Shown here in pieces: positions 31,411-42,060 of a stretch of DNA of 64,000 nt. Numbering within the stretch: the stretch's first letter is position 1; every line of letters starts with the position of its first letter. The notes beneath the pieces were generated by a model. The model was not told the origin of the DNA, did no database searches, and saw only the letters and a list, made by a program, of their open reading frames with translations. The stretch is from Methylobacillus gramineus (GTDB taxonomy: Bacteria; Pseudomonadota; Gammaproteobacteria; Burkholderiales; Methylophilaceae): positions 1,116,001 to 1,180,000 of the forward strand of contig NZ_JAJAVE010000001.1 of assembly GCF_020532675.1 (NCBI RefSeq). The letters are read 5' to 3'. The translations under genes were made by a program, and so were the position numbers.

Positions 31411-31485
31411 CGATTGATCCACTCATACAAATTCATATAAAAACTACCAGGCTTACCTTGTGATCCATCAACCACTTCACCAAGC

Positions 31486-31585
31486 GTGCCACCGTCATTT
31501 GCTGGCAAGACGCGGCGGCGAAGGCAGTACAACTGAGTACGACAAGGAGCCGCAACGCCGCCAGTGGACGACTGTGACACGTGCT
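31486..31585. repeat. Palindromic element H1 between ureF and ureG
   Basis: A ~100 nt imperfect palindrome starting 6 nt after the ureF stop. Arms GTGCCACCGTCATTTGCTGG and the inverse of CCAGTGGACGACTGTGACAC pair with mostly transition differences. The inner stem GCGGC/GCCGC differs from the other copies. The core is shared with H2, H3 and H5: GGCAGTAC, a short loop, GAGTACGACAAG, then CAACGCCGCC. One of five such elements in the fmd/urt/ure block. Confidence 0.8.
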
Positions 31586-31591
31586 GCAACT

Positions 31592-32272
31592 TCATGACCT
31601 AAACAGGCGGCTATACTGCGTTTCATGCCGACTTCCGGCAATCGTCAATGCCGGACAAAAATTACTGATCTGCTTATCCGGCATCAACATCGCCTGCTCC
31701 ACCAATGCCGGTATACCGCTCGCCACTGACATCAAAATCTTCTGCCCGGCTACCTGCCCAAGCGGCACCGTCTTCATCGAGGCACTGGCCTGGTTTTCCA
31801 GCCAGGCCCATGCATATGCCTGCAACGCATGGGCGGGCGGAATGCCCCAGGCTTGGCTGATCCCGGCATACAGCACAGGAAAGGCTGGCGACTGCAACTG
31901 GGCAAGCTGCACCATAAAGGCCTCAGGCAAATCATCCAGATCGTTCAACAGGCGCTTCAGGGAATAGCCCATTTGCCGGCTTTCAGCCCAGGCTTCAGCG
32001 GTATCCCTTCCCGCGAGGTAAACCTCGTTCCATTGCTGTAACGCGGCAATATCGCCTTGTTGCCAAGCCTGGTAAAAGCGCACCAGCAAAGGCAGCTCAA
32101 AACTGCCCTGATACATATCCAACACATCAGCAATCCACTCCCGAGCACTATCCAGGTCATGTACTTGCTGTGACTCTATCGCCCACTCCAGCCCTTGCGA
32201 GTAGCTATAGGCGCCGACTGGCAGCATAGGGCTTGCCAGTTGCAATAGCCTGACCAGATGATGCTCAGTCAT
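31592..32272 (-). CDS. ureF: Urease accessory protein UreF
   Basis: A 226-residue all-helical chaperone that with UreD and UreG forms the nickel-insertion complex on apo-urease. The N-terminal LVRLLQLASPMLPVGAYSYSQGLEWAIE is the family signature. It overlaps the end of ureE by 8 nt, so the two are coupled. Confidence 0.93.
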   Translation of the reverse strand: MTEHHLVRLLQLASPMLPVGAYSYSQGLEWAIESQQVHDLDSAREWIADVLDMYQGSFELPLLVRFYQAWQQGDIAALQQWNEVYLAGRDTAEAWAESRQMGYSLKRLLNDLDDLPEAFMVQLAQLQSPAFPVLYAGISQAWGIPPAHALQAYAWAWLENQASASMKTVPLGQVAGQKILMSVASGIPALVEQAMLMPDKQISNFCPALTIAGSRHETQYSRLFRS

Positions 32273-32759
32273 GTTTCCTCAAGCGCGCAGGTGGTTTGAT
32301 GGAAGGGCCATCGTCTTCATCATGCCCATGCCTGTGCCCACCACCATACGCACCAGCCTCAGGCTCGAATGGCGCTAGCTCACCACTAACCCGCATGCCA
32401 AGCCCAAGCAGCATTTCCTGCAACACATGATCTTGCTCCAGACGCAACCAGCCTGTACCCACCTGCAACGGCACATGCCGATTACCCAAATGATAAGCAG
32501 CGCGCATCAGGCCTTCTGCACTATCGGCCTGCACCAGCAACACCGGCTGATCTGCGGCCACAACCTTGACCACGCGACCATCATCCGCCTGCAACAGGTC
32601 ACCACCACGCAAAATGGTACCGCGCTCCAGTAACAGGGCAGCCTCGCTACCCGAAGCCAGTACCACGCGTAAACGGCTCTTCTGTCGGCGGTCAAACGGC
32701 AGCACCAGCTGGTCATCAATCTGGCTGGCCGTTTCTATTTTCTTGCTGATTCCTAACAT
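32265..32759 (-). CDS. ureE: Urease nickel metallochaperone UreE
   Basis: A 164-residue nickel carrier. N-terminal peptide-binding domain, then the metal-binding domain with LGNRHVPLQV. The C-terminal tail HRHGHDEDD is a short His-rich nickel tail. Separated from ureC by 214 nt that contain palindromic element H2, then overlapped by ureF. Confidence 0.93.
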   Translation of the reverse strand: MLGISKKIETASQIDDQLVLPFDRRQKSRLRVVLASGSEAALLLERGTILRGGDLLQADDGRVVKVVAADQPVLLVQADSAEGLMRAAYHLGNRHVPLQVGTGWLRLEQDHVLQEMLLGLGMRVSGELAPFEPEAGAYGGGHRHGHDEDDGPSIKPPARLRKHD

Positions 32760-32870
32760 GCGGTTTCCGGTTTTATTTATTCAATTGAACAACACAAAAT
32801 TTTCTTATACGTCTGAGCGATGCACAACACAGCCCCAGAAAGCACCTTCTCAATTCTCATCGCGATTACT

Positions 32871-32976
32871 TGAGCGTGCAGCTAAGTGTTCCTGACAAGG
32901 CGATTTAGCGCAGACAGTACACTTAAGTACGGCAAGCTAAAGCAACGCCGTCCGGGACTCTTAGATGCACGCATCA
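32871..32976. repeat. Palindromic element H2 between ureC and ureE
   Basis: A ~106 nt palindrome whose right arm reaches the ureC stop codon. Arms TGAGCGTGCAGCTAAG and the inverse of CTTAGATGCACGCATCA pair. The inner stem TTTAGC/GCTAAA is perfect and different from the other copies. Shared core: CAAGGCG, GACAGTAC, GTACGGCAAG, GCAACGCCG. Confidence 0.8.
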
Positions 32977-34677
32977 GAATAGGAAGTAGCGTTGGGCTAG
33001 GGGGAGCACCTCCGCCGGCTCACAACTCAGCACCATGCCATCTGCCCGTACTTCATAGGTTTCTGGATCTACGTCAATATTAGGCATCCAGCCGTTATGG
33101 ATCATGTCCGACTTTTTGATGCTGCGCGTCCCCTTGACAGCCACCAGGGGTTTTTGCAAATTGAGGGCCTGGATCTCGGGATTCTGCAGCGCAGCCTGGG
33201 ACACAAAGGTAACCGATGTCTTGAGGCCGCCACCATAAGCACCAAACATGTGGCGATAATGCACAGGCTGTGGTGTCGGAATCGAAGCGTTAGGGTCACC
33301 CATGGCAGCCGCAGCAATCATGCCACCCTTGAGTATGGTGGAAGGCTTGACGCCAAAAAAAGCCGGGCGCCACAACACGATATCCGCCAGCTTGCCTACC
33401 TCGATTGAGCCTACGGTATGTGCAATCCCGTGCGTGAGCGCAGGATTGATGGTGTACTTGGCGATATAGCGCTTGATGCGGAAATTGTCGTTACGTGTAT
33501 TGTCCGGCGCCAGCGGGCCACGCTGCACTTTCATTTTGTGGGCAGTCTGCCAGGTGCGGATGATCACCTCACCCACCCGGCCCATGGCCTGTGAGTCGGA
33601 TGACATCATGGCAAAAGCCCCCAGGTCATGCAGGATATCCTCTGCAGCAATCGTCTCGCGGCGTATACGGCTTTCGGCAAAGGCCACATCCTCTGCAATG
33701 GCAGGGTCCAGGTGATGGCAGACCATCAGCATATCCAGGTGTTCATCAATGGTATTGATGGTGAATGGACGGGTTGGGTTGGTGGAGGATGGCAGCACAT
33801 TGGGATAACCCGCAGCCTTGATGATGTCGGGCGCATGGCCACCGCCCGCACCTTCGGTATGGAAGGTGTGGATGGTCCTGCCTTTAAAGGCCTCAATCGT
33901 GGTTTCGACAAAACCGGATTCATTGAGCGTGTCCGAATGGATAGCCACCTGAATGTCCATTTCCTCGGCAATACTCAGGCAGTTATCAATCGCTGCTGGC
34001 GTTGTGCCCCAGTCTTCATGCAGTTTCAGACCCACCACGCCCGCCTGCACTTGTTCACGCAAAGGCTCTGGCAAACTGGCATTACCCTTACCAAGAAACC
34101 CCAGATTCATTGGAAAAGCATCGGCAGACTGCAGCATGCGATGAATATGCCATGGGCCGGGCGTACAAGTAGTGGCAAAAGTGCCAGTCGCGGGACCAGT
34201 ACCGCCCCCTATCATGGTGGTGACGCCTGACATAAGCGCTTCTTCTATCTGCTGTGGGCAAATAAAGTGGATGTGCGTATCAATGCCCCCAGCGGTGACA
34301 ATCATGCCTTCACCGGCAATCACTTCAGTCCCGGCGCCCACAGGGATATCCACCCCAGGTTGTATATCAGGGTTACCCGCCTTGCCGATGGCTGAAATAT
34401 AACCGCCCTTGATGCCGATATCCGCCTTGACGATGCCCCAGTGATCAATAATCAGGGCATTGGTGATCACGGTATCCGCCACCTCGCTGGCCAGGCCCTG
34501 CCCCTGCCCCATGCCGTCACGGATCACCTTGCCGCCACCGAATTTCACTTCCTCACCATAGAGGGTGTAGTCTTTTTCCACCTCAGCCCAAAGCTCAGTG
34601 TCTGCCAGACGGATGCGATCTCCCACGGTGGGACCGAACATTTCGGCATAGGCCTGCTTGTCTATCTTGACGCTCAT
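32974..34677 (-). CDS. ureC: Urease alpha subunit UreC
   Basis: A 567-residue catalytic subunit of urease (urea + water to ammonia and carbamate). The nickel site is complete: the DTHIHF histidines, the carbamylated Lys in GLKLHEDWG (residue ~217), and MVCHHLDP with the flap cysteine and histidine. Normal length. Its ATG overlaps the ureB stop (ATGA). A palindromic element follows the stop. Confidence 0.98.
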
Positions 34678-34982
34678 TCCAATGCTCCCATTACCTTGCC
34701 AGCAAACCCATACACCTTGCGTAGCCCCGCCAGCGCCACCAATTGCACCGTGCGGGTCTGGCCTGGCTCAAAACGCACAGCCGTTCCAGCCGCAATATCC
34801 AGCCGAAAACCATAGGCCAGCTGCCGATCAAAGGACAAAGCCTCATTGGTTTCATAAAAGTGATAATGCGAGCCAATTTGAATCGGCCGGTCACCCGTAT
34901 TGGCTACCTCCAGCGTGACCGTTTCACGCCCGTCGTTGAGCAGGATTTCGCCTGCCTCTATCTTCATTTCACCTGGGATCAT
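34674..34982 (-). CDS. ureB: Urease beta subunit UreB
   Basis: A 102-residue structural subunit starting [20 protein letters not shown] and containing [19 protein letters not shown], which is the UreB signature. Overlaps ureC by 4 nt. Upstream, 152 nt separate it from ureA, almost filled by palindromic element H3. Confidence 0.97.
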
Positions 34983-35030
34983 GCTTATTGCTCCAGTGAT
35001 TTTCTATATATTCTATTCACCATGCTGTCA

Positions 35031-35134
35031 GGCATAGTGCTGCAAACGTGGAGGGCAAGTCGCAAATCCAAAGACAGTACAATGAGTACGGCAAGGATTT
35101 GCAACGCCGCCATCCGCGTTTGCAGTGCTATGCC
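35031..35134. repeat. Palindromic element H3 between ureA and ureB
   Basis: A 104 nt palindrome ending exactly at the ureA stop codon. Outer arms GGCATAGTGCTGCAAACG and the inverse of CGTTTGCAGTGCTATGCC pair over 18 positions with only G-T style differences. The inner stem GCAAATCC/GGATTTGC is perfect. Core: GACAGTAC, AATGA, GTACGGCAAG, GCAACGCCGCC. The clearest copy of the family. Confidence 0.85.
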
Positions 35135-35437
35135 TCATGGGATGGGTTGGTGGACGGTGACTAATTTAGTTCCGTCCGGGAAAGTCGCCTCAACCTGGAT
35201 GTCAGGAATCATTTCCGCCACCCCCTCCATCACATCATCGCGCGTCAGCAAGGTGGCGCCATATCCCATTAACTCAGCCACTGTCTGTCCATCACGCGCG
35301 CCTTCCATAATGGCGGCGGAAATATAGGCAATCGACTCAGGATAATTGAGCTTGAGGCCACGCGCCTTGCGCCGCTCCGCCACTAGTGCAGCAGTAAAAA
35401 TCAGCAGTTTGTCTTTTTCTCTTGGGGTTAATTCCAT
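35135..35437 (-). CDS. ureA: Urease gamma subunit UreA
   Basis: A 100-residue subunit starting [23 protein letters not shown] and containing [21 protein letters not shown], both highly conserved in UreA. Lies 43 nt after ureD. Normal length. Confidence 0.97.
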
Positions 35438-35480
35438 GGCTACATTCTTAAATGGGTTATCTCAAATCCTGGACGAAAAC

Positions 35481-36338
35481 TCAGGTGTTCCAGATACGCG
35501 GCCTGACTGCGGCACGCCCGGCATACCAAGGCCTCAGCAATTGCCATAGACGCTCGAAATATTGCTTGGCCGCCTCTGAAGAGCTGCCTATATAACGTGC
35601 TGAAAATATCTCAGGCAAGGCAGTGACACCATATTGTGACTCCTGGTCTGCTTCTATCATGCGACAGGCTTCCAGTACATCTGCGGGCACTGTCCCTGCA
35701 GCCACCACTAGGCTAGCACTCACAGGAAAACCTCGCAAACCAGCTACCGATTTTAGAACGCGACTTTGAGGATGCAAAAACATGCGTTCATTCCAGATCA
35801 GGCGCTGATCACGCCGGATGCTCAATCCTTGCTGCAGCTCACCTTCAGACCATGCTTCACCACGTGCCTGTCGGCCAAAACACAGGATCTCCCAACCACA
35901 GAACACTGCATCACCCTGCAATACGATCTCCGCAGAAAACCCAACACTAGAACCATCAAACAGGATGTTCTCCTGCGGCAACCACTCCAGGCTGGCACCT
36001 GGCTCCAAATCGAACTTGAGCTGCTGGCTGGCCGCCTGGCCATTGGCTTTGTACCACTTGCCTGCCCCCGGCGTCGTCAGCAATGCCTGTGCGCCCTGCT
36101 TCAGACTGGATTGCAGCAACAACTGGTCACCGCCAGCCACGCCGCCCGGTGGGTGAATAATGATGCCGTGACAGACTTTATCCCCTTCTGGGTACAGCAT
36201 TTTTTGCACAACCAATGGACCTGTATGTCGCTTACCCACCAACGTTGTTCTCTCCCGCTGCAGCGAGAAATCCAGCGCCAGCGAGGCAAACCAGCGTTTG
36301 TCCAACCTAGTCATCATGCTTGTTTCAACATCATCCAT
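35481..36338 (-). CDS. ureD: Urease accessory protein UreD
   Basis: A ~285-residue scaffold for nickel insertion. Family features: LRERTTLVGKRHTGPLVVQKMLYPEG, then HPPGGVAGGDQL and TTPGAGKWYK. ATG 36338 (MDDVETSMMTRL) is the likely start; the frame is open for 14 more codons. Transcribed after urtE across a gap holding element H4, and just before ureA. Confidence 0.92.
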   Translation of the reverse strand: MDDVETSMMTRLDKRWFASLALDFSLQRERTTLVGKRHTGPLVVQKMLYPEGDKVCHGIIIHPPGGVAGGDQLLLQSSLKQGAQALLTTPGAGKWYKANGQAASQQLKFDLEPGASLEWLPQENILFDGSSVGFSAEIVLQGDAVFCGWEILCFGRQARGEAWSEGELQQGLSIRRDQRLIWNERMFLHPQSRVLKSVAGLRGFPVSASLVVAAGTVPADVLEACRMIEADQESQYGVTALPEIFSARYIGSSSEAAKQYFERLWQLLRPWYAGRAAVRPRIWNT

Positions 36339-36430
36339 GGGCAGCATCCTGCCATAAAAACACCTGCATCTAGCACTCAATCATGGATTATCTGGTTTTC
36401 TCCACTTTCAAAACAATCTAACGGCCAGTG

Positions 36431-36503
36431 AAACTGGTGCTGGCAAGGCGCGCGACACGCAAACAATAAATGACTAAGCGCAACGCCGCCAGCAGGCTGT
36501 TTT
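36431..36503. repeat. Palindromic element H4 between urtE and ureD
   Basis: A shorter, decayed member of the palindrome family, starting 8 nt after the urtE stop. Arms AAACTGGTGCTGGC and the inverse of GCCAGCAGGCTGTTT pair; the inner stem GCGC/GCGC is present and the flanks GGCAAGGCG and GCAACGCCGCC match the other copies. The paired GTAC core is lost (AACAATAAATGAC instead). Confidence 0.65.
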
Positions 36504-36511
36504 GTTTGCTT

Positions 36512-37201
36512 TTATACGGACAAATAGCCTTTGATCTTGGCCGCGTCTACTTCGCTACGCTTGTTCTCATGGATGAAATTACCCTTGTCGATCACGATAA
36601 TACGATCAGCAATTTCCATGGTAAAACTCAGCACTTGTTCAGACACGATGATGGTGATTTCACGCATCTTGCGTATTTCATTCAGCACCTTGGCGATATC
36701 CTTGATGATGGATGGTTGTATGCCCTCGGTGGGTTCATCCAGCAACAAGACCTTGGGGTTGGTCACCAACGCACGGGCGATTGCCAACTGCTGTTGCTGT
36801 CCCCCTGAAAGGTTGCCACCCTTGCGGTTACGCATATCGTAAAGCACGGGAAACAGGGCGAAAATATCTTCTGGAATCTCACGATTCCTGGATTTTTCCA
36901 GGCCGGTCTCGATATTTTCCTGCACAGTCATGGTGGGGAATATCATGCGTCCCTGAGGCACATAGGCCAGGCCTTTGGCCACACGTTGATAGGTTTCATT
37001 GCCACCAATTTCCTGGCCATCCACCAGTGCTTTGTTGCTTTTGCTGGGTAAAATTCCCATCAACGACTTGAACAATGTCGTCTTGCCCATGCCGTTGCGG
37101 CCCATGATGGCAAGGGTTTCATTTTTTTCTGCCTTGAAACTGATGCCATGTATGACTTCACTCTGGCCATAGCTTACTGTCAGGTCTTCAATCTCTATCA
37201 T
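36512..37201 (-). CDS. urtE: Urea ABC transporter ATPase UrtE
   Basis: A 229-residue branched-chain-type (HAAT) ATPase. Walker A GRNGMGKTT at residues ~34-42, signature LSGGQQQQLAIARAL, Walker B VLLLDEPTEG. The order urtA-B-C-D-E followed by urease genes identifies the substrate as urea. Confidence 0.95.
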   Translation of the reverse strand: MIEIEDLTVSYGQSEVIHGISFKAEKNETLAIMGRNGMGKTTLFKSLMGILPSKSNKALVDGQEIGGNETYQRVAKGLAYVPQGRMIFPTMTVQENIETGLEKSRNREIPEDIFALFPVLYDMRNRKGGNLSGGQQQQLAIARALVTNPKVLLLDEPTEGIQPSIIKDIAKVLNEIRKMREITIIVSEQVLSFTMEIADRIIVIDKGNFIHENKRSEVDAAKIKGYLSV

Positions 37202-37263
37202 TTTGCTATCCTTTTCTATCGGTAGTTCTGGGCTGGCAGTGCCACTCAGGCACCGCCACGGTG

Positions 37264-38007
37264 TTAATGACCCAGATAGACCTCAATGACCTTTTCGTTG
37301 GCTTGTACTTTATCCATGGCACCTTCCGCCAGAATCTTGCCCTGATGCAATACTGTTACCTTATGGGCGATTTTCTTGACGAACTCCATATCATGCTCAA
37401 TCACGATCACCGATCGGTTCTGGCAGATACGGTTCAACAACTCTGCCGTCTGGTCTCGCTCCTTGGCACTCATGCCTGCCACAGGTTCATCCAGCATCAA
37501 CAGTTCAGGTTCCTGCATCAACAGCATGCCGATTTCCAGCCACTGTTTCTGACCATGGCTCAGCAATGCGGCCTCGGTATTCAGGATGTCTTCCATCATG
37601 ATTTCCCTGGCAATCTTGTGTACCTGTGCTACCACGGCTTCATTGCGCTTGAAAAACAGGCTGCCAAACACACCACGCCCTTTGGGATATGACACCTCCA
37701 GGTTCTGGTAAACCGAGAGATTTTCATAAATTGAAGGCGTCTGGAACTTGCGTCCCACCCCGGCCCGCACAATTTCATGCTCGGAAAGCTTGGTCAGCTC
37801 ACGGTTCTTGAACTTGATAGATCCGGAGCTGGACTTGGTCTTGCCGCAAATCAGGTCAAGCACGGTGGTCTTGCCTGCGCCATTCGGTCCGATCACTACA
37901 CGCAACTCGTTCTTGTCGATGTACATATTGAGCTTGTCCACCGCCTTGAATCCATCAAACGACACGGTCAGGTCTTCCACTGCCAGTACAAAATCGGTGT
38001 TACTCAT
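37264..38007 (-). CDS. urtD: Urea ABC transporter ATPase UrtD
   Basis: A 247-residue ATPase. Walker A GPNGAGKTT (residues ~38-46), signature LSHGQKQWLEIGMLL and Walker B LLMLDEPVAGM. The LSHGQKQWLEI form is typical of UrtD. Overlaps urtC by 4 nt and is followed after 62 nt by urtE. Confidence 0.95.
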   Translation of the reverse strand: MSNTDFVLAVEDLTVSFDGFKAVDKLNMYIDKNELRVVIGPNGAGKTTVLDLICGKTKSSSGSIKFKNRELTKLSEHEIVRAGVGRKFQTPSIYENLSVYQNLEVSYPKGRGVFGSLFFKRNEAVVAQVHKIAREIMMEDILNTEAALLSHGQKQWLEIGMLLMQEPELLMLDEPVAGMSAKERDQTAELLNRICQNRSVIVIEHDMEFVKKIAHKVTVLHQGKILAEGAMDKVQANEKVIEVYLGH

Positions 38008-39173
38008 GCTTTTACCCCCGCTTCCTTGATTTCAACCGCTGTGACTGCTGCTACCTGAGCGGTCTTGGGTGTTGGACTTTCTTCTGACAACTTGCGCAGG
38101 AAAGGCACTTTCTTGGCATATTTTTCGTAGACGCCAGCAATGCCGTTAGGGAAGAACATCACCACCGCAATGAAGAGCCCCCCCATCAGGAACAGCCACA
38201 ACTCAGGATAAGTCTCGGAGAACATGGTCTTGCCAAAATTCACCAGCAAGGTGCCATATACCGCACCTATCAGCGACATGCGTCCACCAACTGCTGCAAA
38301 AATCACCATCTCGATCGAAGGCACAATGCCGATGAAGGTGGGTGACATAAAGCCCACTTGCAGGGTAAACATCGCACCACCAATCGCTGAGATCATGGCA
38401 GCCAGGCAGAAGATGAAAATCTTGAAATTGGACACGTCATACCCTGAGAAACGTACCCGCTCTTCCTTGTCTCGCATCGCAAGCAACAGCATGCCGAACT
38501 TGCTGCTAAGCACGTAGCGGGACAACAGGATGCAGGCAATCAACAAACCGGCATTCACGTAATACAGCACATACTTGGCACTATCGGTGCGGATATCCCA
38601 TCCCAGCATGGTCTTGAGGTCAGTAATCCCATTGACGCCACCGGTATATCCCTGCTGACCCACAATCAGAATACTCAGGATCAAGGCTATAGCCTGGGTG
38701 ATGATGGCAAAGTAGACCCCACCCACCCGACGCTTGAACATGGCAAACCCAATCAGGTAAGCAAAGAATGCTGGAATCACCAGGATGGCCAGAATAGTCA
38801 GAGGCAAGCTCTTGAACGGCTCCCAGAACCACGGTAGTGAAGTCAGCTGGTTCCAGTCCATGAAATCCGGAATACCGGGGGTGGACTGAATGGCAGTGCT
38901 CACAGGATCAGAAGCTTCAAGCTTGAGGAACATGGCCATGCCGTAGCCACCAAGGCCGAAGAAAATGCCCTGTCCCAGGCTCAATATCCCGCCATTACCC
39001 CACAACAACACCAGGCTGACTGCCACAAAGGCATAAGTCAGGTATTTGCCAATCAGGCCAATACGGAAGGGATCCAGCCCAAGTGGCAGCACGATCATGA
39101 TAAAGACAGCAAGAATAGCAAGGCCTATCGCCCCCTGCCTGCCGCCCAACATTTTATTTAGAGTGTCGCTCAT
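38004..39173 (-). CDS. urtC: Urea ABC transporter permease UrtC
   Basis: A 389-residue LivM-type permease with about ten transmembrane helices and the typical UrtC insertion after GQGIFFGLGGYGMAMFLKL. The EAA-like cytoplasmic loop is near RDKEERVRFSGYDV. Eleven nt after urtB. Confidence 0.95.
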   Translation of the reverse strand: MSDTLNKMLGGRQGAIGLAILAVFIMIVLPLGLDPFRIGLIGKYLTYAFVAVSLVLLWGNGGILSLGQGIFFGLGGYGMAMFLKLEASDPVSTAIQSTPGIPDFMDWNQLTSLPWFWEPFKSLPLTILAILVIPAFFAYLIGFAMFKRRVGGVYFAIITQAIALILSILIVGQQGYTGGVNGITDLKTMLGWDIRTDSAKYVLYYVNAGLLIACILLSRYVLSSKFGMLLLAMRDKEERVRFSGYDVSNFKIFIFCLAAMISAIGGAMFTLQVGFMSPTFIGIVPSIEMVIFAAVGGRMSLIGAVYGTLLVNFGKTMFSETYPELWLFLMGGLFIAVVMFFPNGIAGVYEKYAKKVPFLRKLSEESPTPKTAQVAAVTAVEIKEAGVKA

Positions 39174-39184
39174 GTGTGTTCCCC

Positions 39185-40102
39185 TTACTTACGGACTTTG
39201 GATGCAAACAAACCTTCAGGACGCATCATGAGGATGCCGACGATCACCATCAGTGTCGCGACCTTGCCCATGGAGCTGGTCATGAAGAATTGCAGGATGG
39301 ATTGCGCCTGGGCAATACCAAATGCGGAGGCGATGGTACCCATGATGCTGGCAGCGCCACCAAACACCACGACCATGAAGCTGTCGACAATGTAGAGTGA
39401 ACCTGTCGTGGGCCCGGTCGAGGCAATGGTCGTGAACGCTGCACCTGCCACGCCGGCAATCCCACAGCCCAGCGCAAAGGTGACACGATCCACCTTCTTG
39501 GTATTGATACCGACAGCACCTGCCATGACCCGGTTTTGCACCGTGGCACGTACACGCAAGCCCCAGCGGGAGCGGAACATAAAGAGATAGACACCGACAG
39601 TCACCACCAAGGCAAGACCGAGTACGAACACCCCGTTGATCGGGATATCAATGTCCGGCGTTGGCTGGAAAGAGCCCATGAGCCATTCAGGCAACACAGC
39701 GCTGACTTCCTTGGCGCCAAAGGTGGAACGGAAAATTTGCTGCATCACCAGGCTCAATCCCCAGGTGGCGAGTAGTGTATCCAGCGGTCGTTTATATAGA
39801 TGCCGTATCAGGGCAAATTCGACCAGATACCCAATAATGAACGCAATGATAAATGCGATGACAATCGCAAACAGGAAGTAATAGTTCACAATTCCGTAAG
39901 TCTCGGCAACCTTGGAAAGAAACACGGTGGTGTAGGCGCCTATCGCCATAAATTCACCATGGGCCATATTAATCACGCCCATTTGGCCGAAGATAACCGC
40001 GAGGCCAAGTGCCATCAGGAGAAGAACGCTGAACAGGCTTAACCCCGAGAAAGCCTGCATGACAACGATATTGCCTATCTCTGCCATTGAATAATCAAAC
40101 AT
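39185..40102 (-). CDS. urtB: Urea ABC transporter permease UrtB
   Basis: A 305-residue LivH-type permease (ALGLAVIFGQMGVINMAHGEFMAIGAY; coupling loop RVRATVQNRVMAGAVGI). It is the short UrtB form, without the long N-terminal extension some bacteria have. Separated from urtA by a 125 nt gap with a strong hairpin. Confidence 0.95.
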   Translation of the reverse strand: MFDYSMAEIGNIVVMQAFSGLSLFSVLLLMALGLAVIFGQMGVINMAHGEFMAIGAYTTVFLSKVAETYGIVNYYFLFAIVIAFIIAFIIGYLVEFALIRHLYKRPLDTLLATWGLSLVMQQIFRSTFGAKEVSAVLPEWLMGSFQPTPDIDIPINGVFVLGLALVVTVGVYLFMFRSRWGLRVRATVQNRVMAGAVGINTKKVDRVTFALGCGIAGVAGAAFTTIASTGPTTGSLYIVDSFMVVVFGGAASIMGTIASAFGIAQAQSILQFFMTSSMGKVATLMVIVGILMMRPEGLFASKVRK

Positions 40103-40170
40103 AATCGGCCTCCAGCCTTTTACTTACTTACGAAGATGAATCCATGCTGCGATGAATCTTGTGTTACTCG

Positions 40171-40200
40171 CCACAACAACCCCTTCTGGGGCTGCTGTGG
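40171..40200 (-). terminator. Strong hairpin between urtA and urtB
   Basis: CCACA-C-A-CCCC and GGGG-TG-TGTGG form a 13-position stem with an AGAA/TTCT loop. No T-run follows. In ABC operons such a hairpin after the binding-protein gene usually protects or trims the mRNA so that the binding protein is made in excess over the membrane parts; that role is inferred. Confidence 0.6.
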
Positions 40201-40227
40201 TATTTCACTTAATTAAACGCTAAACGC

Positions 40228-41472
40228 TTATTGATAACCCTTTGGGAATGGATCAGGTTTGATCAGCTCAGACTCGTAGACCACTTCAGCCTGGCCGTTA
40301 GCCAGCCACTTGCCCACACGCAGCTTGCTTTCCAGGTGGTGGTTAGGATCAACCTTGACGTACCCTTCAGGCGCTGCTTTCAGCTCGTAGCCAGGCAATG
40401 CTGCAGCGGCTTTGTCTACATCAAAGCTACCTGCGCGTTCAACTGCCGCTTTCCACAACCATGGGCCAAGATAAGCCGCTTGTGTCACGTCACCAATCAC
40501 AGACTTAGGTCCCCACATTTTCTTGAACTCGGCAACGAATTTCTCGTTGTTTGGATTCTTCAAGGACTGGAAGTACTTCATCGCAGAGTAGAAACCCTCC
40601 AGGTTTTCACCACCAATGCCCAGGACTTCATCCTCAGTCACGGAAATGGTCAGCATGTTCTGCTTCTTGGAGTTAAGGCCAGCCGCATTGAGTTGCTTGA
40701 ACCAGGCCACGTTACTACCACCTACCACCGCAGCGTAGATCACATCAGGCTTCTTCAGCTTGATCTTGTTGATGACAGAACCGAACTGGGTATCCCCCAG
40801 GGCGATGTACTCTTCACCGACCACTTTGCCGCCCAGCTTCTGCTCAATGTGCTTGCGCGCAATCTTCATGGAAGTGCGTGGCCAGATATAGTCAGAACCA
40901 ATCAGGTAAAAAGTTTTTGCCTTCTTTTCCTTGGCTATCCAGTCCAGACCTGCAAGAATCTGCTGCGTCGCTTCCTGACCGGTGTAGAACACATTCTTGG
41001 ATTGCTCCAGGCCTTCATAGAACGTCGGGTAGAACAGCAAACCGTTTTCTTTTTCAAATACTGGCAGCACCGCTTTACGTGAAGCAGAAGTCCAGCAGCC
41101 GAATACTGTCGCCACCTTGTCGTTCACCAGTAATTTCTTGGATTTCTCGGCAAACGTTGGCCAGTCACTGGCGCCGTCTTCCTGAATCACTTCAATCTTG
41201 CGGCCCAGTACGCCGCCCATGGCATTGATCTGGGCAATCGCCAGTTTTTCTGCCTGGATGGAACCCGTTTCGCTGATCGCCATGGTGCCGGTTGAAGAAT
41301 GCAGGATACCGACCTTGACTGTGGTATCAGTCACTGCCAGCTTGGTGGTATTGACCTTGGCAGTGGGGAAATCAGCCGCAAAAGCGCTGCCGGAAATCAT
41401 GCCTGCGGCAAGCAAGGCCCCCATAAGGGCGCCGGTTTTCGTGATGAAATGGCGTCTAGTGTTGTTACTCAT
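40228..41472 (-). CDS. urtA: Urea ABC transporter substrate-binding protein UrtA
   Basis: A 414-residue periplasmic urea-binding protein. The N-terminus TRRHFITKTGALMG...SAFAA is a twin-arginine (Tat) signal with RRHFITK. Then a type I periplasmic fold begins KVGILHSSTGTMAISETG, with FYPTFYEGLEQSKNVFYTG, strongly typical of UrtA. First gene of the urt-ure run; 227 nt upstream separate it from fmdB. Confidence 0.96.
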   Translation of the reverse strand: MSNNTRRHFITKTGALMGALLAAGMISGSAFAADFPTAKVNTTKLAVTDTTVKVGILHSSTGTMAISETGSIQAEKLAIAQINAMGGVLGRKIEVIQEDGASDWPTFAEKSKKLLVNDKVATVFGCWTSASRKAVLPVFEKENGLLFYPTFYEGLEQSKNVFYTGQEATQQILAGLDWIAKEKKAKTFYLIGSDYIWPRTSMKIARKHIEQKLGGKVVGEEYIALGDTQFGSVINKIKLKKPDVIYAAVVGGSNVAWFKQLNAAGLNSKKQNMLTISVTEDEVLGIGGENLEGFYSAMKYFQSLKNPNNEKFVAEFKKMWGPKSVIGDVTQAAYLGPWLWKAAVERAGSFDVDKAAAALPGYELKAAPEGYVKVDPNHHLESKLRVGKWLANGQAEVVYESELIKPDPFPKGYQ

Positions 41473-41599
41473 CAGATTTCTCCTGAAATTAAAAACTGCA
41501 AAAAATTAAGGTATTCAAAAGCGCTTGGTAATGTGCATCATCATGTGAGAGCAATGCCGAATGCCACTATCAAATGATGCTATGCATATTTCTCAATCC

Positions 41600-41701
41600 G
41601 GTGTGATCAGCGCGTTTCGATAGCAAGGCGCAGTGACGAAGACAGTACGCCGAGTACGCCAAGTAACTGCAACACCGCTAGCGGAAGACGCTGGTCACAC
41701 C
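41600..41701. repeat. Palindromic element H5 between fmdB and urtA
   Basis: A 102 nt palindrome abutting the fmdB stop codon. Arms GGTGTGATCAGCG and the inverse of CGCTGGTCACACC pair almost perfectly, then TAGC/GCTA. The inner stem GCAGT/ACTGC is unique to this copy. Core GACAGTAC, GCCGA, GTACGCCAAG, GCAACACCG. Confidence 0.8.
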
Positions 41702-42060
41702 TAATGTCCCAACATCCAGGGACGGGCCGTTTTCTTGGTCTGCATCTGCAATAGGCTTCCTTTCTCTTTTGCATTGGCTCCCTGAGCGGAACTGGGTTTA
41801 GCGCTGGACGAACTACACGTATGAGCCCCTGCACATCCGCAACTAGAACGGCGGGTAGACCTGGGTTCATTGGCAGATTTCTCGTTGCGTTCGTGCGCAC
41901 TACGCTGTGCCTTGCCAATAATCGCCAGACGTGGCGCTGAGAGAATGCGCTCGCTTAACTCGCCGCAATCCGGACAGATTGTGGGTGAACTCGATTCACT
42001 CATTTTCCCCAGGGCGGCAAATACACCGCACTCATCACATCTGTATTCATACATTGGCAT
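41701..42060 (-). CDS. fmdB: FmdB family zinc ribbon protein
   Basis: A 119-residue protein. The first 45 residues are the FmdB zinc ribbon (MPMYEYRCDECGVF and ICPDCGELSERI, two CxxC pairs). The second half is Ser/Lys/Cys-rich with a CGCAGAHTC cluster and low complexity. FmdB accompanies formamidase FmdA in methylotrophs and is proposed to regulate or assist the amidase; function not settled. Thirty nt after fmdA. Confidence 0.85.
   Translation of the reverse strand: MPMYEYRCDECGVFAALGKMSESSSPTICPDCGELSERILSAPRLAIIGKAQRSAHERNEKSANEPRSTRRSSCGCAGAHTCSSSSAKPSSAQGANAKEKGSLLQMQTKKTARPWMLGH

Follow-up and report, generated by a model that had tools for sequence, protein, structure and literature searches.

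Correia-like hairpins behind stop codons in the urea gene region of Methylobacillus gramineus

What keeps long hairpins, each paired along arms of its own, directly behind the stop codons of genes that serve urea metabolism? The question is raised by a stretch of 64,000 nucleotides (nt) from Methylobacillus gramineus (assembly GCF_020532675.1, contig NZ_JAJAVE010000001.1, positions 1,116,001 to 1,180,000), here called the window, in which five hairpins of about 100 nt (E1 to E5) lie directly 3' of the stops of ureF, ureC, ureA, urtE and fmdB. Judged by sequence, the closest known family to these elements is Correia/NEMIS, not REP, and they are Correia-like, members of a wider family around the Correia element. 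We consider it probable, if well short of certain, that they are Correia-derived intercistronic RNA hairpins kept at gene ends, their function being one that we infer. The urease and urea-transport genes of the window lie on the minus strand; hairpin coordinates are given on the plus strand, which is also the strand of the core model and thus antisense to the genes. A first-pass annotation had noted five palindromes directly behind stops, and all are present, with 1-9 nt between stop and paired part (E1 9, E2 1, E3 3, E4 1 and E5 1 nt, counted from the ends of the open reading frames, ORFs):

31484..31582, minus strand: E1, hairpin of the Correia-like kind behind ureF, separated by 9 nt from the stop of that gene at 31592
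32874..32972, minus strand: E2, hairpin behind ureC
35034-35131 (paired part; 35030..35135 with the outermost pairs), minus strand: E3, hairpin between ureA and ureB
36423..36510, minus strand: E4, decayed copy behind urtE, apical box lost
41602..41699, minus strand: E5, hairpin behind fmdB

Four of these (E1, E2, E3 and E5) are well formed, the best being E3 (z = -8.2 and -9.2 for folding energy against shuffles), while the folding energy of E4 is no better than that of shuffled sequences (as good in 89 of 200 shuffles for the sense strand and in 31 of 200 for the plus strand). The outer helix of E2 can be extended by eye into the TGA stop with one bulged base. Along the plus strand, the 5' half consists of an outer arm of about 20 nt, GGCAAGGCG, an inner arm of 7 nt and an internal loop, and is followed at the apex and in the 3' half by GTAC, loop, GTAC, then GGCAAG, the inner arm, GCAACGCCGCC and the outer arm. 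Across copies, a conserved two-box core, GCAAGGCGC-n5-CGCAG...CAAG-n5-GCAACGCCG, sits in a hairpin of about 98 positions, and the inner, outer and apical helices around it vary freely yet pair.

The pairing can be put into numbers. When E1, E2, E3 and E5 are aligned (E4 left out; 99 columns, one gap column), 88.8% of 152 cells are standard pairs, against 65.6% after shuffling and 24-44% when slid, and 25 of the 38 pairs have changed on both sides, a count reached by none of 500 shuffles. Double-sided variation is found in the inner stem (5 of 7 pairs) and also in the outer arms, which bears out the annotation's observation that both differ between copies and remain complementary. Because the structure had been derived from these same few copies, the test was repeated on the ureA site of six species, aligned with MAFFT with no structure used: here pairs form in 91.2% of 228 cells, and double-sided change affects 16 of 38 pairs. 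Four of the five measures were matched by no shuffle out of 500; the remaining one, the number of pair types, is not above shuffles (303 of 500 as high). In 129 model-fitted copies pairing reaches 89.9% of 4585 cells, where shuffling leaves 54.1% and sliding 32-37%; the measures that count pairs and types are not above shuffles here (308 and 202 of 500 as high) because nearly every pair varies. Left-arm columns hold merely 0.01-0.71 bits of sequence information (51 copies), with pairing still high. A shared fixed core had also been proposed, and its boxes are indeed kept, but the apical GTAC/GTAC helix is constant in the four good window copies only and shows compensated variation elsewhere. 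Similarly, the arms are copy-specific between loci, as had been claimed, but orthologous copies have common arms with directly observed compensated changes.

Orthologous sites in relatives (genomes are labelled G, loci L and contigs C; G000 is the own genome) show how these copies come, stay and go. Behind ureC, among 28 family loci, G000, G003, G004 and G005 have one common element whose arms are compensated, and G001 has a different element at the same spot; three loci have another kind of hairpin, and the other 20 have none by eye, many of them running straight on into the next gene. Those three (G371, G363 and G355; L131, L132 and L134) carry hairpins of a third kind, with the core GTACTCAAAATCCTCATGTAC / GTACATTCCGGTTTCTGCG in G371 and G355 and a shorter one in G363. 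The match at G002 ureC (L153) is incomplete and has two in-frame TGA codons, and this gene may be broken or misassembled. The ureA site holds an element in 6 of 6 genus genomes compared, with two arm types, G000 having one and G003 the other although the ureC of G003 is the closest to that of G000 (95%). At the ureF site no element was seen in G003, G004, G005 or G001, the reading of the ureF end of G002 being unreliable, and the urtE site has better-preserved relatives of E4 in G005 and G004. Behind fmdB of the own genome, E5 is followed by a core-deleted remnant of the G003-type element; E5, which also resembles this older fmdB element, may have been inserted anew or may be its tandem copy, since diverged. 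As for a target-site duplication, the site is compatible by eye with a 3-nt ATT duplication or with a tandem duplication. At edd (phosphogluconate dehydratase; TIGR01196 is the best match, below its cut-off with this partial protein), compared over 30 loci of which six were unread, elements are patchy among relatives, and another hairpin is seen by eye behind edd in the element-free relatives G346, G335, G021, G002 and G007. The annotation had suggested that local sequence might be inverted around a mobile core. Element-free ureC sites, read by eye in other genera, look bare and offer no hairpin arms that could be borrowed, so that arms borrowed from terminators are unsupported, and compensatory change at orthologous sites explains the arms with no inversion process, as template switching also would.

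Placement relative to stop codons was measured on a core-only set, in which 112 matches in fetched loci were reduced to 66 when near-identical ones were dropped. A copy was called stop-adjacent if its right outer arm ended in the range -8..11 nt from a stop (negative values lying inside it, positive ones short of it), counting stops of ORFs with 100 codons or more on the strand opposite to the core model strand. On the right side 50 of 66 copies are stop-adjacent and on the left 0 of 66, an enrichment after stops that the annotation had anticipated; among model-found copies the figures are 51 of 69 for solo hairpins and 0 of 37 for those in head-to-head pairs, no paired hairpin lying within 12 nt of a stop. 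The placement observed is thus mostly 0-5 nt behind stops and in a single orientation. For the 50 stop-adjacent copies, the median gap is 2 nt to the stop and 57.5 nt to the next ORF, which runs in the same direction in 46 cases, is convergent in 2 and is not available in 2. All three stop codons are used (26 TAA, 13 TGA, 11 TAG), and the idea that TGA serves as the target in DNA was rejected on this ground, although 15 of 50 copies (5.1 expected) have their stop codon repeated in the left flank, and the helix thus sometimes takes in the stop. Several of the genes that bear elements resemble, by eye, highly expressed housekeeping genes (putatively groEL, leuA, eno and aspS). In a scan of named genomes, among the matches listed, 120 matches gave 39 non-redundant copies, of which 19 are stop-adjacent on the right and 3 on the left; without five copies already known the figures are 14 and 3 of 34, and the stop-codon bias is therefore weaker outside the family.

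The annotation had taken REP/BIME elements as the nearest analogy, a place that goes instead to the Correia/NEMIS family. In G510, which belongs to the same order, some copies can be read as Correia elements, and R1, a model built from the four window copies only, finds all three G510 copies that were fetched (66.5, 60.7 and 59.7 bits; E 1.8e-15 to 1.1e-13), so that a core common to both is observed directly. When one of these copies served as a query, two Neisseria gonorrhoeae records matched it at 98.3% and 100% over 81-85% of its length, in at least 40 places each, and two Cupriavidus records at 84.9% over 39%. The Correia terminal-repeat pattern TATAGTGGATTAA-n-TCAGGACAAGG occurs 10 times in G510, exact matches only. 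For comparison we drew on published work (PMC12306157, PMC2817692, PMC8266576, PMC3733652, PMC2649163, PMC5039591, PMC10969869 and PMC2229807), in which the printed Correia repeat variants (PMC5039591) and core ends (PMC2649163) agree. Correia elements are described as mobile, co-transcribed hairpins, and the window elements share with them the same kind of hairpin of about 100 nt and the boxes of the core, GCAGACAGTAC and GTACGGCAAG among them. They differ in that the terminal repeat, as an exact pattern, was not found in five genus genomes, and the window copies are for this reason filed as Correia-like and not as Correia elements; in that their arms are copy-specific, whereas two sequence variants of the inverted repeat have been described; and in that they lie behind stops in one orientation, whereas the papers stress positions upstream of genes. 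Correia elements fall into length classes of 104-108 or 153-157 bp, and the paired parts in the window measure 98-99 nt in four copies and about 106 nt in E3 with its outermost pairs, the true ends being undefined where no terminal repeat marks them.

Family membership extends well beyond the window. In the own genome R1 finds 12 places at E<=10, 11 at E<0.005 and 7 at E<1e-7, counts that include the four copies from which it was built, and among close genomes it has matches at E<=0.1 in 35 of 61, own included. A second model, R2, built from 66 copies, has matches at E<=1e-6 in 72 of 274 genomes of a class sample and in 59 of 299 of a sample of the phylum Pseudomonadota, own included in both. 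When the core sequence was searched with pairing ignored, the element was found in 53 of 120 genomes of the family, and a backward control pattern had no match in any of the 120. Among the matches listed, the core hairpin also occurs in named records of Janthinobacterium, Chromobacterium, Aquitalea, Variovorax and Methylobacillus, and phage records gave no match to the element. By sequence, then, the core hairpin is much wider than Neisseria, contrary to the view of CREE as unique to that genus, stated in a 2016 paper (PMC5039591); a 2009 paper limits the 26-bp Correia repeat to Neisseria. No description of the hairpin family outside Neisseria was found in open-access papers, mainly in their titles and abstract openings.

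The 129 copies fall to 106 when those more than 85% identical are removed, 69 of them solo and 37 head-to-head, about 105 nt apart. By eye, the head-to-head pairs sit within units that resemble miniature inverted-repeat transposable elements (MITEs) with terminal repeats. Three two-hairpin units of this kind (L078, L073 and L083) have quite different terminal repeats in each genome (GTGTCCTGTC, GTGCTCCTTCAAGGTAATAA and TTAACCCGGCAAC). G001 contains one pair family and one solo family, each recurring many times, and the unit of G085 has 36 matches in its own genome, partial and reverse ones included, with near-identical copies; no autonomous element was seen in eight stretches of G085 that were read. 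Of the annotation's expectations, the involvement of a mobile element and the maintenance of pairing are supported. A long transposon with the hairpin at both ends, considered in G127, was rejected, the contig itself being palindromic. This contig (L340, G127:C76) is an inverted duplication of 7.2 kb and probably an assembly artefact.

Around E1 to E5 the window holds two remnants and the genes behind which the hairpins lie:

41525..41597, minus strand: older element behind E5, surviving as a remnant that has lost its core and has arms of the G003 fmdB type
32811..32828, minus strand: possible remnant arm of a second element behind E2 (G001 ureC type), by eye
31592..32272, minus strand: ureF, named from the first-pass annotation and gene order; no NCBIfam match at E<=1e-20
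32974..34677, minus strand: ureC, urease alpha subunit, TIGR01792 above cut-off
35135..35437, minus strand: ureA, urease gamma subunit, TIGR00193 above cut-off
36512..37201, minus strand: urtE, urea ABC transporter ATPase, TIGR03410 above cut-off
41701..42060, minus strand: fmdB (name from the first-pass annotation), RPWMISH domain model below cut-off (102.4 vs 120 bits)

The name ureG is supported too, by an NCBIfam match above cut-off. Rfam has no match over the five window elements at E<=5, and at eight loci with other copies it gave two matches at E<=1, far below their gathering scores and both off the hairpins. A T run directly 3' of the sense hairpin, as in an intrinsic terminator, was not seen by eye in the five window copies. 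Two short hairpins of other kinds lie nearby: an ordinary one at 37235-37263, directly behind the urtD stop and found by eye in 6 of 6 genus genomes with arms that differ each time, and one at 40171-40200 between urtA and urtB (CCACAACAACCCC / GGGGCTGCTGTGG), similar by eye in five genomes with a readable gap. Antisense to ureC, on the plus strand at 34239-34521, there is a match to Rfam RF02514 (5_ureB_sRNA) of 120 bits, three times the gathering score, which may reflect merely the conservation of the urease coding sequence.

The short distance to all three types of stop, the same-direction setting and the maintenance of orthologous copies argue for a role at the end of the cistron. Correia-derived intercistronic hairpins would have begun as a mobile Correia-type element that spread, its copies then being retained at gene ends, mostly between genes of one operon. 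Co-transcribed, the hairpin could mark where the upstream cistron ends in the mRNA, by giving RNase III a place to cut or bind, as is reported for NEMIS/CREE, and by blocking 3' exonucleases, and the cistrons of the urt-ure transcript could thereby differ in stability. Pairing of the arms would be kept up by compensatory change that mends mismatches, perhaps helped by template switching in replication. RNase III cleavage or binding of CREE RNA has been published, as has CREE mobility in Neisseria, and this RNA behaviour is the most concrete precedent; a second possibility is ribosome stalling of the kind reported for REP elements at most 15 nt from a stop codon.

Several observations weigh against this account. 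The terminal-repeat pattern TATAGTGGATTAA-n-TCAGGACAAGG, exact matches only, occurs 0 times in G000, G001, G003, G004 and G005. Between edd and eda no hairpin is seen by eye in several relatives (G396, G372, G390 and G012), so the element is dispensable there. Outer-arm mismatches are asymmetric. Among the core-only copies, 51 have 11 or more Watson-Crick pairs, and their register was set on those pairs alone (the set was chosen without regard to pairing and then cut at 11 pairs). In these, the strand antisense to the gene has 76 G.T against 20 A.C mismatches, or 59:20 without two wobble-prone columns, whereas G.G/C.C (17/21) and T.T/A.A (19/19) are balanced. Model-found copies give 126:20 when solo and 58:9 in pairs, in sets that may be biased by the model's preference for G.U; without the two columns the ratios, by subtraction, are 29:9 for paired copies and 72:13 for gene-end copies. 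Copies from named genomes, among the matches listed, give 42:14, or 30:14 without shared copies. The sense RNA thus has the more disruptive mismatches, and the bias weighs against a purely mRNA-level role. Whole-hairpin folding energy does not clearly confirm it, the antisense strand folding better in 37 of 66 copies and the sense strand in 28 of 66. An excess of G.A over C.T (60:20 in the core-only set, where it is more spread over columns) was dropped as a general strand signal, being mostly due to two columns (19-20) in model-aligned copies: the gene-end ones give 35:22, and 24:20 without these columns.

The same asymmetry could point to recognition of single-stranded DNA, in which the folded antisense strand would be bound by a strand-specific transposase or recombinase, as REP is by TnpA-REP and the attC bottom strand by IntI, and gene-end copies would be traces of insertion events. 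G.T exceeds A.C in gene-end and paired copies alike, two adjacent columns hold U.G, in 36 and 38 copies out of 124, copies are numerous in G001 and G085, and head-to-head pairs have, by eye, terminal repeats. The arrangement of gene, stop and bottom-strand hairpin is attC-like, although the sequence boxes of attC differ from those of the window elements. The two would further have in common a place behind a stop codon and two boxes in opposite sense, together with bottom-strand folding, which has been described for attC; the neighbours of the window elements are urea-metabolism genes, a further difference. No candidate enzyme emerged for this explanation. The annotation had proposed a search for a RAYT/Y1 transposase gene, and Y1 (PF01797) has no match in the own genome at E<=0.001. 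It is present in 11 of 15 element-bearing genomes tested, but 20 stretches around Y1 genes (part of 33 Y1 matches) contain only two R2 matches at E<=1, one scoring 30.7 bits, which lies some 0.8 kb away from the Y1 match on G257:C21, and one scoring 19.1 bits, which leaves hairpins at one or two of 20. Of 66 feet, 2 bear a REP tag (GTAG, GTGG or CGTC); a control window gives 1 of 66. An origin from REP/RAYT was rejected on these grounds: no Y1 match in the own genome, few hairpins near Y1 elsewhere and no GTAG-type tag beyond the control level. The likeness to REP/BIME lies in extragenic palindromes near gene 3' ends, in head-to-head pairs and in the conserved AA-GC mismatch bulge described for E. 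coli REP, and the difference in length, about 100 nt against 20-40 nt. ERIC and other enterobacterial MITEs, compared by description only, are likewise reported as repeats of some 100-200 bp that fold into long stem loops when transcribed. Further, DNA cannot sense where an ORF ends, yet placement tracks any of three stop codons; orthologous copies go on compensating where they reside, something that would not be needed if selection acted during transposition alone; and the G.A excess is not general. We regard recognition of single-stranded DNA as unlikely.

Less likely still is template switching as the whole explanation, that is, a mutational process in replication that copies one arm onto the other and keeps any long palindrome paired while it drifts. 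Such events are described for RNA genes (PMC8794818), and the low information of the left-arm columns at high pairing is what the process would produce. Conserved boxes, a short distance to the stop and a single orientation are left unexplained by it, the strand bias would need an additional strand-specific mutation bias, and E4 has decayed within the window. Even more doubtful is a Pseudomonadota-wide superfamily of strand-specific folded-DNA elements of which Correia would be one branch, placed or renewed directly behind stops with the folding strand antisense to the gene, and mobilised by a putative enzyme that would recognise the two-box hairpin as an integron integrase recognises attC. 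Least likely is a plain selfish MITE whose insertions survive between genes only, the remainder being chance: high-copy subfamilies in G001, near-identical copies in G085 and CREE mobility in Neisseria would agree with it, but survival alone would scatter copies over the gap, which the contrast between the medians upstream and downstream contradicts, as do the single orientation and the element behind ureA throughout the genus genomes compared.

With its core hairpin this widespread, the Correia element of Neisseria would gain a wider history and a non-pathogen model in which its function could be tested, along with many genomes in which to seek the mobilising enzyme. Arms that vary freely and remain paired make the structure testable by covariation, and the placement behind stop codons makes a role at the level of the operon testable as well.

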